This document shows, piece by piece, positions 18,590 through 24,168 of a stretch of DNA of 64,000 bases. A model generated the notes under the pieces. It was not told the origin of the DNA. It did no database searches and saw nothing but the letters and a program-made list of their open reading frames with translations. Within the stretch, counting starts at the first letter, position 1. The number at the start of each line of letters is the position of its first letter. Source of the DNA: Chloroflexota bacterium (lineage in GTDB: Bacteria > Chloroflexota > Dehalococcoidia > Lucifugimonadales > UBA3495); the NCBI GenBank assembly GCA_002721995.1, contig PBMF01000025.1, forward strand, positions 1-64,000. Reading direction: 5' to 3'. The translations under genes were made by a program, and so were the position numbers.

Positions 18590-18890
18590 GTGGTTCCTTG
18601 GACGGAGATATCCCATTGCTCTTGGTCGGGACGCTGTGGATATCCGCCTATTAAAAAATTATAAATAGCCAGCCTCTTATTTCAAGGATTTTGAGGCTCT
18701 TGACTGACCGGATTGGAGATCCCACAGGGCCGGAAAATGGCCCCACAGATGCACCCGCGCCTTGGCCTTTTGGGTGCTGACCTGGGGCCGTTGTTATGTC
18801 GCACAAACGTTCTATATAATCCGTTGCCACCGGCCAAATAGCCTTAAATCAAGGCCAAAACCAGACTCAAGATTAGAACGCACAAAGCCA

Positions 18891-20090
18891 ATGACAGACC
18901 GTTCCATAGCCTGCATTTTAGTCACCCACCTTCCGGTAAAAGCCGAGGTGCGGCGTTACCCCCAGTTGCGGGGAAAGCCGGTGATAATCACCGAGAGTTA
19001 CGGCTCCAAAGACCTGGTGCTGGACAGCTCACCGGAAGCCAAGGGCGTGACCGCTGGCATGCCCCTGGCCGAGGCCATGGCCCGGTGCAAAGACGCGTCC
19101 CTATTGCAGGCCGACGCGCCCCACTACAACCAGACCTTCAACAAGCTGGTCCAAGCCCTGGAACTGCGCAGTCCCGTGGTGGAAAGGGCCGGACTGGGCT
19201 GCGTCTACGTGGGGCTGGACGGCTTGGACCTGATGTACGGGGGAGAAGCCCGGGTCGTGGCATCCCTGGTCCAGGCGGCGCCCCAGGAGTTCAACCCCAG
19301 GGTCGGCGTGGCCACTGGTAAGTTCCCAGCCTACGTGGCCGCTGTCACCACCGAGGGTGGACGCGCCACCAGGGTGCCCAAAGACCCGGCTGGCCTGGCG
19401 GGATTTCTGAGCAGATTGTCCATCGGGCTGCTGCCTCTGTCCAGGGCCAGTAAGACCCGCATGCATCGCTTCGGCATTCACACCATGGGGCAGTTGGCGG
19501 CCCTGCCTGTGGGGGCGGTCCAGGCCCAATTGGGGAACGACGGCCGACTCGCTTGGGACCTGGCCAACGGACTGGACAGCAGCCCCCTTGTGCCCCACCG
19601 GGTGCAACAGGAGGTGGCGGAGTCCATCACCTTCCCGTCGCCCACCATCACCTGGGCTCCCATACTGACCGCCCTGAGCACGCTGCTGGGCCGTGCCTTT
19701 GCCCGTCCTGAGGTCGGCGGCCGCTACGTTCGCACCGCCACCATCGAAAGCCATGTGTACCGGCTGCCGCCCTGGGTGAAGCGGTTCGGGTTCAAAGAGG
19801 CCCTGGGTAGCAGGGACCGGGCCCTCTTCGCCCTGAAAAGCCGGCTGGGCAGCGTGACTCTGCCCGGCCCCCTGGAGGACATGAAGCTCACCCTCACCGG
19901 GTTCACCGGCGAGTCCGGCATCCAGACCAACCTCTTCTCCGACGTTCGCAAACAGGAGCAGCTAAAGGAGATGATGCGCCAGTTGGAGGCCCTTTTGGGC
20001 GGCAAACCGCCGATCTACCAGATGAAGGATATAGAACCGTGGTCCCGCATACCAGAAAGACGCCAGGCCCTGGTCCCCTTTGACCCCTAA
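18891..20090 (+). CDS. Y-family DNA polymerase-like protein, ImuB-like (mutagenesis accessory factor)
   Basis: Y-family architecture with RFGIHTMGQLAALPVGAVQAQLG HhH region; canonical catalytic acidic motifs not evident (ILVTHLPVKAEVRRYPQLRGKPV; VYVGLDGLDLMYGG); adjacent to DnaE2. Confidence 0.82.
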   Translation: MTDRSIACILVTHLPVKAEVRRYPQLRGKPVIITESYGSKDLVLDSSPEAKGVTAGMPLAEAMARCKDASLLQADAPHYNQTFNKLVQALELRSPVVERAGLGCVYVGLDGLDLMYGGEARVVASLVQAAPQEFNPRVGVATGKFPAYVAAVTTEGGRATRVPKDPAGLAGFLSRLSIGLLPLSRASKTRMHRFGIHTMGQLAALPVGAVQAQLGNDGRLAWDLANGLDSSPLVPHRVQQEVAESITFPSPTITWAPILTALSTLLGRAFARPEVGGRYVRTATIESHVYRLPPWVKRFGFKEALGSRDRALFALKSRLGSVTLPGPLEDMKLTLTGFTGESGIQTNLFSDVRKQEQLKEMMRQLEALLGGKPPIYQMKDIEPWSRIPERRQALVPFDP

Positions 20091-20092
20091 AG

Positions 20093-20461
20093 ATGAGAGC
20101 TGGAAAGATAAAAACCCCACGGGCCAAAATCCGTGCCCCGCAGCAGGTTCAGGACCTGGAGTTCCGTTCCCTGAACCTGCCGGTCCCCATCCAGGTGGCC
20201 AGCGACAAGACGGGCATGCCCGCCGCCGTGGCCCTGCCCCACGCCCGCTCCCGCCGCCCTCGCCCCGCCCCAAAAAGCCAATACCTGAGAATCACCGCCA
20301 TCAATGACCTGTGGCAGGTGGACGACGAATGGTGGCGAAAACACCCCATCGCCCGACGCTATTACCAGATCACCATCCAAGACGACAGACGCCTAACCAT
20401 CTACCAAGACCGAGCCAACGACCAATGGTACTGGCAGAGAGGGGGTGAAGCTGACAGCTAA
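20093..20461 (+). CDS. Small basic protein (DUF6504-like candidate) between imuB-like gene and dnaE2
   Basis: LWQVDDEWWRKHPIARRYYQITIQDDRRLTIYQDRANDQWYWQRG; begins 2 nt after the imuB-like stop. Confidence 0.65.
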   Translation: MRAGKIKTPRAKIRAPQQVQDLEFRSLNLPVPIQVASDKTGMPAAVALPHARSRRPRPAPKSQYLRITAINDLWQVDDEWWRKHPIARRYYQITIQDDRRLTIYQDRANDQWYWQRGGEADS

Positions 20462-20503: not shown

Positions 20504-20541
20504 TGTCATTCTGAGCCAGCCGCAGCGGCGAAGAATCTGCC
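20504..20541 (+). repeat. REP-like palindromic unit, left copy
   Basis: TGTCATTCTGAGCCAGCCGCAGCGGCGAAGAATCTGCC; internal stem ATTCT/AGAAT. Confidence 0.75.
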
Positions 20542-20560
20542 AACTTTCAAGGACAAAAGG

Positions 20561-20884
20561 ATGAACCGGTACTACGTGTACATCACGTCCAGCTACCAAG
20601 GAACTCTGTATGTAGGAATGACCAACGACCTATATCGCAGAGCCTACGAACGTCGTCACAAGTTGGTACCTGGATTCACCCGGAGATACAACGCGACTAA
20701 ATTGGTGTACTACGAAGAGACGCCCAGTGTGGAGTCTGCCATTGCCCGCGAAAAACAGACCAAAGGGTGGCGGAGAAGCAAGAAGGCCTCTCTGGTGGCA
20801 TTGTCTAACCTGCGCTGGGTAGACCTAGCAGAAGGACGGTATGAAGACCGAAGCTTGGCAGACCCTTCGCTTCACTCAGGGTGA
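20561..20884 (+). CDS. GIY-YIG nuclease superfamily protein
   Basis: YYVYITSSYQGTLYVGMTNDLYRRAYERRHK (YVY..YVG, R, with downstream E in YYEETPSVESAIAREKQTKGWRRSKK). Confidence 0.9.
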   Translation: MNRYYVYITSSYQGTLYVGMTNDLYRRAYERRHKLVPGFTRRYNATKLVYYEETPSVESAIAREKQTKGWRRSKKASLVALSNLRWVDLAEGRYEDRSLADPSLHSG

Positions 20885-20886
20885 CA
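20857..20886 (-). repeat. REP-like palindromic unit, right copy in inverted orientation
   Basis: Reverse complement TGTCACCCTGAGTGAAGCGAAGGGTCTGCC matches the left copy; internal stem ACCCT/AGGGT. Confidence 0.75.
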
Positions 20887-20931
20887 GTGTCGAAGCGAAG
20901 GAATGATTTGCAGCCTGACTCAGATAGACAA

Positions 20932-20968
20932 GAATCCCCCCTTCGTAAAGGGGACTATGGGGATTTCC
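20932..20968. repeat. Partial copy of the 3490..3598 GC-rich hairpin repeat
   Basis: AATCCCCCCTTCGTAAAGGGGACTATGGGGATTTC vs CCCCCCTTTCGTAAAGGGGGCTAGGGGGATTTC. Confidence 0.75.
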
Positions 20969-21000: not shown

Positions 21001-24000
21001 ATGTACGCCGAACTTCACTGCCACAGCAACTACTCCTTCCAGGAGGGCGCATCCTCCGTGGAAGAACTATTGGTGCGCGCCCGCGACCTGGGACTCCGGG
21101 CCCTGGCGCTCACCGACCACGACAACCTTTGCGGGGCCATGCACTTCGCCCAGGTGGCCAAGACCCTGGACATCCAGGCCATCACTGGATCCGAACTGAC
21201 CATAAAGGACGGCAAAGACGGTCAGGCCAACTCCCACCTCACATTCCTGGCCGAGACCCAAGACGGTTACAGCCAGCTCTCCAACCTGCTGTCCTACTCC
21301 TACGTGGCCGGCGACCGGAGGAACCCAGCCCTGGACCTGAAATGCCTGCCCGAGCGCGTGGGCGGTCTGATCCTGCTCACCGGCTGCCGCAACGGACGGG
21401 TGCCCGCCCTTCTGACCCAGGGCCGCTACGTCGAGGCCGAGACCCAACTGCGCCGGTACCTGGACTGGTTCGGCACTGACAATGTGTTCGTGGAATTGCA
21501 GCAGAACCTGGTGCAGGGCGACACCCGGCGCAACCGGCGGCTCATCGACCTGGCCCGCAAGCTGGGCGTGCCCACCGTGGCCACCAACAACGTCCACTAT
21601 CACGTACCGGAACGACACCGGCTGCAGGACGCTCTGGTCGCCATCAAACACAACCTCAGCCTGGAGGAGACCCACAAAGAGCGCCGGGCCAACAACCAGT
21701 TCCACCTCAAGTCTCCGGCCGAGATGGCCGCCCTGTTCACCCGCTGCCCCGAGGCCATCAGGAACACCCTCCACATCGCCGAGCGCTGCTCCTTCGACGT
21801 GACCAAGAATCTGGCCTACCGCTTCCCCGACTACCCGGTCCCCGACGGAGAGACCGCCCAGAGCCACTTCGAGGACCTGTGCCGCAAGGCCGCCGAGCGC
21901 CACTACGGCAGAATCGATGAGAAGGTCAAAGCCCGTCTGGAAGAGGAGTTCCGGCTCATCCGCAAGCACAACCTGGCCGGCTTCTTCCTGATCTATTACG
22001 AGATCATCCAGATGGCCCGCCAGATCATGATCGAGCTGGGCTTAAGCGACGCCGAGATCCCCCTGGAAGAGCGCCCGCCGGGCCGGGGCCGGGGCTCGTC
22101 GGTGGCCATGCTGGTGGGCTATCTCATCGGCCTCTCCCACATCGACCCCCTGAAGTACAACCTGTCCCTGGACCGGTTCCTGTCCGACGACCTGGGCTCG
22201 GTGCCCGACATAGACCTGGACTTCCCCCGCAACATCCGCGAGGAGCTGATCAAACGGGTGCACCAGAAGTGGGGCTGGGACCGGGCCGCCCTGACCGGCA
22301 TGATCAACACCTACCGTATGAAGGGCGCCGTCCGCGACCTGGGCAAGGCGCTGGGTCTCCCGGCCCAGGGCGTGGACAAACTGGCCAAACGGGTCGACTC
22401 CCACGACGCCAGGGAACTGGAGCTGGAGATGCTCCAACTGACCGAGTTCCGGGACAATGTGGACGCCCCCGGCTGGCAGGACCTCATCGACATGGCGGCC
22501 CAACTGAACGGCTTCCCCAAGTATCTGGCCCAGCATCCGGGCGGCATGGTCATCAGCTCATCGCCCCTCATCAACACCGTGCCGGTCCAGCAGGGAGCCA
22601 TCGACGACCGCTACATCTGCCACTGGGACAAAGACAGCATCGACCAGGCCGGCTTCGTGAAGATCGACTTCCTGGCCCTGGGCGCCCTCTCCCAGATGCA
22701 GGAATGCCTGCTGATGATCGAAGAACGGACCGGCCAGTACATCGACCTGAGCCGCATCGACTTCGACGACAAGGCCGTCTACGAGACCATGCACCAGGCC
22801 GACACCATCGGGGTCTTCCAGGTGGAGTCCGCCGCCCAGATGCAGACGGTGCACCGCCTGAAACCCTGGAACCTGACCGACATGGCCTTCGAGGTGGGGG
22901 CGGTGCGCCCCGGCGTGGGCGTGAACGACGGCGTGACCCAGTTCATCCAGCGCCGCTCCGAAGGCGTCCCCTGGGACTACGACCACCCCCTGGAAAAGCG
23001 GGCCCTGGAACGCACCCTGGGCATCATCCTGTTCCAAGACCAGGTGAACCACGTGGCCATGGACGTGGCCGGCTTCAGCGGGTTGGAGGCGGACCAACTA
23101 CGCCGGGCCTTTGGGCGGAGAAACAACGAGACCCTGATACAGCACTACCGGGAGAAGTTCCTTGCCGGGGCCGCTGAGCGGGGAGTCTCAGAAGATGTGG
23201 CCGAACGGATCTTCAACAAGTTCAACGGCCACTACATGTTCCCCGAGTCCCACGCCTTCGCCTTTGGCGCCACCGCCTACCACATGGCCTGGCTCAAGTA
23301 TTACTACCCGCTGGAGTTCTTCGTCACCATCTTCAACCAGCAGCCCATGGGTTTCTACAACACCGAGACCCTGAAGGAGGACGCCAAGCGCCACGGCATC
23401 ACCGTCTTGAACCCGGACATCAACCACAGCCGGGAGCAGTGCACCATCAAGGACGAATGTCTCCTCCTGGGGCTGCGCTACGTGCGGGGCATGGGCGAGG
23501 CCGCTGCCAACCAGGCCGTGGCCGCCAGGGACCGGGGCGGCCCCTTTAAGAGTCTGGCCGACGTCATGGAGCGGACCGGACTGCTGCGGGAGAACATCGA
23601 GAACCTGGTGGGCGCCGGGGCCTTTGACTCATTCTCGCCGGGTGGGTCCAGTGGAACGGGACGCCGCCAGACCCTGTGGGAGGTGGGCCTGCGCTACCGG
23701 CCCATCAACTCCCAGCAGCCCCTGCTCCTGCCCGTGGAACAGGACATGGCGGAGCTGCCCGAACAGAGCCAGTGGGAGACCATGGGCGAGGAGTACCGCA
23801 TCATGGGCCTCTACCCCGAAGGCCACCTGATGGCCCTGGCCCGGCCTCACCTGCGGCCGGGTATCCTGTCCAGCCGCGACATCGAATCCAGGGCCGACGG
23901 TGAGACGGTCACCGTGGCCGGGCTGGTGATACGCCGTCAGCGCCCCCTGGCCAAGGCCGTATTTCTCACCCTGGAGGACGAATTCGGCCACATTCCGCTG

Positions 24001-24168
24001 GTGGTGTGGCCCGATGAATTCGCCAGATACCGCCACACCATCCGCGAGCCCCTGTTGGTCATCCAGGGCCAGGTGTCCCGCCGGGACGGCACCATGAACA
24101 TCGTCGCCCAGCATGTGGAACCCATGCCCGCCATGGACAACCTGCCCAAGGCCAAAAGCTGGCAGTAA
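21001..24168 (+). CDS. dnaE2: Error-prone DNA polymerase III alpha subunit
   Basis: PHP domain ELHCHSNYSFQEGASSVEELL, PDIDLDFPRNIREELI, catalytic core GVFQVESAAQMQ; ATG 21001 (the track start 20881 lies in repeat sequence). Confidence 0.92.
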   Translation: MYAELHCHSNYSFQEGASSVEELLVRARDLGLRALALTDHDNLCGAMHFAQVAKTLDIQAITGSELTIKDGKDGQANSHLTFLAETQDGYSQLSNLLSYSYVAGDRRNPALDLKCLPERVGGLILLTGCRNGRVPALLTQGRYVEAETQLRRYLDWFGTDNVFVELQQNLVQGDTRRNRRLIDLARKLGVPTVATNNVHYHVPERHRLQDALVAIKHNLSLEETHKERRANNQFHLKSPAEMAALFTRCPEAIRNTLHIAERCSFDVTKNLAYRFPDYPVPDGETAQSHFEDLCRKAAERHYGRIDEKVKARLEEEFRLIRKHNLAGFFLIYYEIIQMARQIMIELGLSDAEIPLEERPPGRGRGSSVAMLVGYLIGLSHIDPLKYNLSLDRFLSDDLGSVPDIDLDFPRNIREELIKRVHQKWGWDRAALTGMINTYRMKGAVRDLGKALGLPAQGVDKLAKRVDSHDARELELEMLQLTEFRDNVDAPGWQDLIDMAAQLNGFPKYLAQHPGGMVISSSPLINTVPVQQGAIDDRYICHWDKDSIDQAGFVKIDFLALGALSQMQECLLMIEERTGQYIDLSRIDFDDKAVYETMHQADTIGVFQVESAAQMQTVHRLKPWNLTDMAFEVGAVRPGVGVNDGVTQFIQRRSEGVPWDYDHPLEKRALERTLGIILFQDQVNHVAMDVAGFSGLEADQLRRAFGRRNNETLIQHYREKFLAGAAERGVSEDVAERIFNKFNGHYMFPESHAFAFGATAYHMAWLKYYYPLEFFVTIFNQQPMGFYNTETLKEDAKRHGITVLNPDINHSREQCTIKDECLLLGLRYVRGMGEAAANQAVAARDRGGPFKSLADVMERTGLLRENIENLVGAGAFDSFSPGGSSGTGRRQTLWEVGLRYRPINSQQPLLLPVEQDMAELPEQSQWETMGEEYRIMGLYPEGHLMALARPHLRPGILSSRDIESRADGETVTVAGLVIRRQRPLAKAVFLTLEDEFGHIPLVVWPDEFARYRHTIREPLLVIQGQVSRRDGTMNIVAQHVEPMPAMDNLPKAKSWQ

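Follow-up and report, generated by a model that had tools for sequence, protein, structure and literature searches.

A GIY-YIG nuclease gene between inverted TGTC-tagged palindromes: a probable REP-type mobile cassette in the imuB–dnaE2 spacer of a Chloroflexota genome

What is a minimal GIY-YIG nuclease gene, framed by two inverted palindromes, doing inside a mutasome operon? The question is raised by a stretch of 64,000 nucleotides of a Chloroflexota genome (the window), for which a sequence-only reading had put forward a small mobile unit consisting of a nuclease and its palindromes. The order of the elements in the block, read from the sequence, is a left-end (LE) palindrome, 24 bp, the GIY-YIG ORF and an inverted right-end (RE) palindrome (Table 1), the limits given by that reading being right to the base. 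The LE is followed by a CTGCC tail reaching position 20541, and the minus strand of the RE reads TGTC ACCCT..AGGGT and then CTGCC, as does the plus strand of the LE with TGTC ATTCT..AGAAT CTGCC; as originally remarked, the differences between the two paired stems are compensatory and the right unit encodes the last residues of the nuclease (ADPSLHSG) together with its TGA stop. The block indeed lies between the imuB-like and dnaE2-like genes, although it is not alone in separating them, for a conserved 122-aa ORF also intervenes. The product of this ORF has no match in Pfam, NCBIfam or PADLOC; it is kept between imuB and dnaE2 in SAR202-type relatives and is a candidate mutasome component. The start of dnaE2 is very probably the ATG at 21001 rather than the GTG at 20881, and directly downstream of the cassette, at 20930-20965, there is another palindromic stretch, AATCCCCCCTTCGTAAAGGGG..GGGGATT.

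Table 1. Position of the cassette, its parts and the neighbouring genes in the window
Feature	Coordinates	Strand	Remarks
Whole cassette, tag to tag	20504..20886	+	383 bp
LE (left-end) palindrome	20504..20536	+	TGTC tag 20504-20507, stem ATTCT/AGAAT, inner hairpin
RE (right-end) palindrome, inverted	20862..20886	-	TGTC tag reads 20886-20883, stem ACCCT/AGGGT
GIY-YIG nuclease ORF	20561..20884	+	107 aa, minimal single domain
imuB-like Y-family polymerase gene	18762..20090	+	PF00817, upstream context
Conserved 122-aa ORF, family unknown	20093..20461	+	between imuB and cassette
dnaE2-like polymerase III alpha gene	21001..24168	+	downstream context

The palindromes are not confined to this block. 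There are 28 copies of the unit TGTCAYYCTGAG in the genome of 2.57 Mb, as against a single copy of its reversed control, and 24 of these 28 units are arranged as 12 inverted pairs with the tags facing outward, an ATTCT unit being paired with an AYCCT unit in each case. The same LE/RE heterodimeric constitution was found in all 21 distinct elements in a sample of loci from the genus itself and from near relatives. The heterodimers fall mostly into three size groups (75-89 bp, 119-127 bp and 383-395 bp), the last of which comprises the elements containing the gene or its remains. Two elements (L087 and L088) are internal-deletion derivatives retaining both ends and little of the gene, the former corresponding to cassette positions 1-94 plus 335-381 and the latter to positions 1-70 plus 312-383. 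As to the premise that each unit is itself a hairpin, the paired stems are there, but the folding of a single unit as DNA is not above that of shuffled sequences (z -0.8 and -0.5). As single-stranded DNA a short LE-RE pair, on the other hand, folds far better than its shuffles (z -5.3), the excess being weaker for a 127-bp pair (z -2.1).

Tag, beginning of the stem and dimeric organisation are the reasons for placing these units in the CGTC-tagged REP superfamily described by Di Nocera et al. in 2013, which includes the dRS3 repeats of Neisseria and RPE-4 and RPE-6 of Rickettsia (PMC3733652). In this superfamily the tag is CGTC, or TGTC/CCTC, followed by a stem beginning with AT; the LE conforms (TGTC-ATTCT) and the RE (TGTC-ACCCT) has C as the second stem base with pairing retained. 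Like the published repeats, the units have a CGTC/TGTC tag, a stem starting with AT (or AC) and a short tail, are intergenic and occur as interspersed copies that are mostly inverted dimers, often heterodimers. They depart from the published stem, an uninterrupted helix of 8-9 bp closed by a loop of 4-5 nt, in that 5 bp of stem are followed, in the units of the window, by G.A mismatches and an inner hairpin, the interruption by two G.A mismatches being shared by many units of the present collection; a further difference is that here a GIY-YIG gene lies between two units. Judged by their sequence, the palindromes of the window are a TGTC-tagged variant of the superfamily, outside its four published families.

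The product of the ORF matches the GIY-YIG domain PF01541 (Pfam E=1e-12), and residues Y7, Y17, R27, E64 and N83 are invariant among its relatives. The AlphaFold model (pLDDT 85, pTM 0.77) has as its best PDB match the UPF0213 protein BH0048 (E=1e-4), Slx1 structures being matched weakly, so that the Tyr, Tyr, Arg, Glu core, the domain match and the fold match all place the protein in the GIY-YIG superfamily. The dN/dS ratio of the gene is 0.06-0.11 with dS near 1, and the ORF is under purifying selection. Prokaryotic Slx1-like/UPF0213 proteins (PDB 1zg2, 1ywl), with which the nuclease shares a minimal stand-alone GIY-YIG domain besides the best sequence and fold match, are predicted repair enzymes of mostly vertical descent (PMC1564403); unlike these proteins in general, the clade of the window is mobile and REP-linked. 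Eukaryotic Slx1 is a structure-specific nuclease (PMC1564403), and specificity of this type would, by analogy, fit a hairpin substrate for the nuclease of the window.

Is the proximity of gene and palindromes more than an accident of this locus? Homologs were sought by protein only in 400 Chloroflexota genomes and in a genome collection; around 91 of them, with flanking sequence, tagged palindromes in outward orientation were looked for within 250 bp, the controls being 731 windows of the same size elsewhere in the same loci. Palindromes lie on both sides of 39 of the 91 homologs as compared to 4 of the 731 control windows, and on at least one side of 71 homologs as compared to 61 controls; at the remaining 20 loci no palindrome was detected by a finder that demands a CGTC/TGTC tag and misses others such as CCTC. 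At the level of whole genomes, palindromes are present in 38 of the 59 Chloroflexota that have the gene versus 22 of the 341 that lack it (p=8e-23), and the co-occurrence holds upon stratification by family (OR 9.8, p=6e-7). Cases were found in Chloroflexota, Gammaproteobacteria, deltaproteobacterial MAGs, Patescibacteria, Omnitrophota, Acidobacteria and Bacteroidota and, among the records of a plasmid collection, in Planktothrix, Rhizobium, Azospirillum, Shinella, Spirosoma and Neisseria. In a Sinorhizobium record the flanking palindromes, spotted by eye, carry a different tag; those surrounding the GIY-YIG gene (L171 1080-1960, L178 551-1300) have a CCTC-like tag, CTCATCCCTGTG..CACAGGGAT, and are tandemly duplicated in one strain.

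The palindromes are also widespread without the gene, a situation that the sequence-only reading had named as speaking against it. At least 12 Chloroflexota genomes contain 14-459 palindromes yet lack a small GIY-YIG gene of the family, having only UvrC-type GIY-YIG proteins or none, and no other small gene was seen between palindromes in the limited stretches of these genomes that were examined. Most copies are nevertheless either paired LE and RE units or derivatives of the cassette that arose by deletion, which is what REP-type elements are expected to leave behind. Among the genomes without the small gene, G116, G353 and G061 have 459, 249 and 179 TGTC-tagged palindromes of the type searched for, respectively.

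Two classes of palindromes can be distinguished, with the stem either interrupted by G.A mismatches or perfect, and the class follows the nuclease, perfect-stem palindromes going with a nuclease clade other than that of the window. On the nuclease tree, which is short and weakly resolved, the class changes 3 times as against 15.3 changes expected from shuffled labels (0 of 500 shuffles), and in 61 of 66 comparisons the class is shared with the nearest nuclease of another genome, permutations giving 40 on average and 53 at most. The host background does not explain this matching, because each of five genomes, including that of the window (window versus L010), has two paralogs of different class. 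The motif WxRxWK is found in 13 of 17 perfect-stem but in 1 of 49 interrupted-stem cases (p=1.5e-9) and WxRxKK marks the interrupted class; the rule was picked after looking at the data, so that its sole independent test is provided by seven loci outside the sample, all of which agree, with W and a perfect stem in Neisseria, Rhizobium CIAT894, Azospirillum, Sinorhizobium and Shinella and K and an interrupted stem in Planktothrix and Spirosoma. A narrower marker, WNRxWK, was discarded as too narrow. Since the type of palindrome tracks the type of nuclease across several phyla, the nuclease is the prime suspect for the spreading of the palindromes.

If the block moves, relatives should be found with and without it. 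Within the genus, the imuB-dnaE2 spacer carries the cassette in the genome of the window (G000) and in G400, G401 and G409 (383 bp also in the last two, but 385 bp with a frameshifted ORF in G400), an internally deleted remnant in G410, palindromes only in G403, and neither cassette nor palindromes in G402, G404, G406, G407 and G408. The prospect of finding no empty site among the relatives is thereby dispelled, neighbouring SAR202 species being devoid of the block at this spacer. The carriers are scattered on the dnaE2 tree, on which supported branches force 4 changes, and the cassette must therefore have been gained or lost repeatedly; frequent losses instead of gains could account for its patchy distribution at this spacer. 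The LE is 95-97% identical in G400, G401 and G409, as against 10-65% over the 20 bp outside the tag; between carriers LE and RE are 87-97% identical and the 20 bp adjoining the tags on the outside mostly 10-45%. Nor is the cassette restricted to the mutasome operon, for suf and other loci harbour copies as well. In Azospirillum lipoferum 4B a unit lies between sufB and sufC and is absent from A. ramasamyi, A. oryzae and strain B510, the flanks being 95-96% identical; in Shinella a site filled in WSC3-e is empty in three relatives. Thus, occupied and empty sites, as expected of a mobile element, are found among relatives in the SAR202 genus, in Azospirillum and in Shinella. No CGTC/TGTC REP was detected in the empty spacers shown for the Azospirillum and Shinella relatives, so that REPs and gene seemingly arrived together. 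One genome (G194) has two copies in unrelated contexts, 81% identical, with a homology that is confined to the element and stops no more than 3 and 20 bp away from the tags; this level of identity may reflect either an old event or the separate acquisition of the two copies. At the sites compared, whose spacers are too diverged, neither a target-site duplication nor a nucleotide-precise empty junction was found.

Two further signs of insertion were considered and discarded. Homology ending exactly at the tags in two pairs of loci (L034/L041 and L033/L037) is due to spacer divergence, because the flanking genes are orthologous. The flanks of the elements share their base composition, C-rich on the left and G-rich on the right; insertion in the middle of a palindromic target was dropped as its explanation, complementarity within elements being not above that of permuted pairs.

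We consider it rather likely, on the strength of these comparisons, that the block represents an autonomous mobile cassette of the REP type whose own GIY-YIG nuclease recognises and cuts its hairpin ends and whose spread is completed by the host. The minimal Slx1-like nuclease would recognise its own terminal TGTC-tagged hairpins, most likely in the single-stranded, folded state that may be offered by replication, repair or DNA uptake, and would make its cut at the tags or close to them. A point against this mechanism is that GIY-YIG nucleases are not known to form a covalent intermediate; the joining would have to be supplied by the host, through whose repair or ligation the complete element, or a derivative of LE and RE without the gene, would be copied or moved to other spacers between genes. 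Modular build, matched nuclease and palindrome classes, LE/RE asymmetry, non-autonomous derivatives, presence or absence at one site and purifying selection are read from the DNA; recognition of the hairpins, their cleavage, the single-strand substrate and the driving of spread by cleavage are what we infer from them, so that of the original proposal the unit that comes and goes is borne out, mobilisation by the nuclease being its conjectural part.

The same observations may be read differently. That a host repair nuclease had REPs land beside it by chance would be in keeping with the preference of REPs for intergenic spacers (PMC3733652) and with the predicted repair role of prokaryotic Slx1-like genes (PMC1564403), but this explanation is very improbable and already disfavoured by the frequency of two-sided flanking relative to the controls, by the class matching and by the joint patchiness of gene and palindromes. 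The nuclease could instead be a resident regulator acting on hundreds of genomic REPs and modulating DNA uptake or recombination, in the manner reported for Ssn and its NTS repeat in Neisseria, the repeats spreading by other means; the strong purifying selection, the persistence of palindromes without the gene and the gonococcal homolog described below would suit such a role, which we nonetheless deem improbable for a gene enclosed in an LE-RE element that comes and goes leaving deletion derivatives. Somewhat less improbable, though still unlikely, is a homing-like cassette borne by recombination, in which nuclease breaks at REP hairpins, repaired from a REP-flanked copy, would fill pre-existing REP sites with no transposition proper. 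REPs without the gene at or beside the imuB-dnaE2 spacer in G403 and G414, the internally deleted copy of G410, the extra REP-like units at this spacer in G401 and G409 and the tandem REP arrays around several copies are what such a process could produce; the empty spacers of Azospirillum and Shinella, in which no REP was detected, speak against it, as does the fact that homing enzymes cut uninterrupted alleles rather than their own ends (PMC1564403). Indeed, the likeness to homing endonucleases drawn in the sequence-only reading fits less well, as these enzymes do not recognise their own element and here the repeat class follows the nuclease. There is no intron or intein, and the cassette sits in spacers between terminal palindromes.

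The other likeness drawn there, to RAYT/REP systems, holds in its logic of a nuclease with palindromes and gene-less derivatives. An enzyme gene flanked by REPs and gene-less inverted pairs are likewise features of the RAYT/TnpA-REP REPtrons and REPINs (PMC2817692, PMC3116915, PMC8266576), and groups of TnpA-REP enzymes co-evolve with interrupted versus perfect palindromes (PMC8266576). The REPtron differs in having an HUH tyrosine transposase of the IS200/IS605 type in place of a GIY-YIG ORF and a GTAG tag in place of CGTC/TGTC (TGTC in the window), and no evidence of tnpA-REP's own mobility is reported, whereas the cassette is there or missing as a whole. The CGTC REPs were left in 2013 apparently without a dedicated transposase, their mobilisation being an open matter (PMC3733652). 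We tentatively extend the cassette reading, at somewhat less than even chances, to the notion that the mobility enzymes lacking so far for the CGTC/TGTC REP superfamily as a whole may be GIY-YIG nucleases of the Slx1-like clade; this would constitute a second REP transposition system evolved independently of RAYT, operating on folded single-stranded hairpins through no covalent intermediate and having two clades specialised on interrupted and perfect palindromes, as the TnpA-REP groups are. Were this true, the combination of an enzyme, hairpin ends and gene-less inverted pairs would have evolved again with a different enzyme fold and many GIY-YIG genes annotated without function would be relabelled as parts of mobile elements; a consistent nuclease partner and a one-residue class rule make the mobilisation of CGTC REPs testable at the bench.

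A homolog 52% identical to the nuclease is found in N. gonorrhoeae amid more than 100 CGTC-1 palindromes. It lies at 1489-1776 of L167 (NZ_CP119142.1), a record that carries no annotation for it and that PLSDB lists as a plasmid yet is chromosome-sized. A family of GIY-YIG nucleases called Ssn, which act site-specifically on single strands, is reportedly the subject of a 2025 study in Nature Communications, together with the NTS repeat of Neisseria; Ssn is said to modulate transformation and to have been offered also as a tool enzyme. That system reportedly resembles ours in combining a small GIY-YIG protein with hundreds of cognate repeats and, because of the palindromes surrounding the gonococcal homolog, we presume that the pairing seen in the window probably belongs to the Ssn family. 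In the literature collection searched, no paper was found that pairs GIY-YIG genes with REP, REPIN or CGTC repeats. What is new is the anatomy of a mobile cassette with its derivatives and empty sites, the connection with CGTC REPs and the rule that predicts specificity; if the family of the window is Ssn, the pairing itself is known and the CGTC REP identity, the anatomy of the cassette and the specificity rule are what is added.

The imuB-dnaE2 spacer is a hotspot for small cassettes. Species without the GIY-YIG cassette have in it an intact or decayed ORF for a DUF559 (VSR-like) endonuclease (G402, G406, G408, G412, G415 and G423; loci L063, L065, L067 and L070), and that of G404 contains a fragment resembling a four-helix-bundle (S23-like) ORF. 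A parallel unit made of DUF559 and CCCCCTTT..AAAGGGGG was rejected, flanking on both sides occurring in only 1 of 25 cases. A second nuclease-palindrome pairing is possible; CCCCCTTT..AAAGGGG palindromes lie close to some DUF559 genes (L195, L197, L200 and L204), with 6 in 14 kb near these genes versus 0 in 62 kb far from them.
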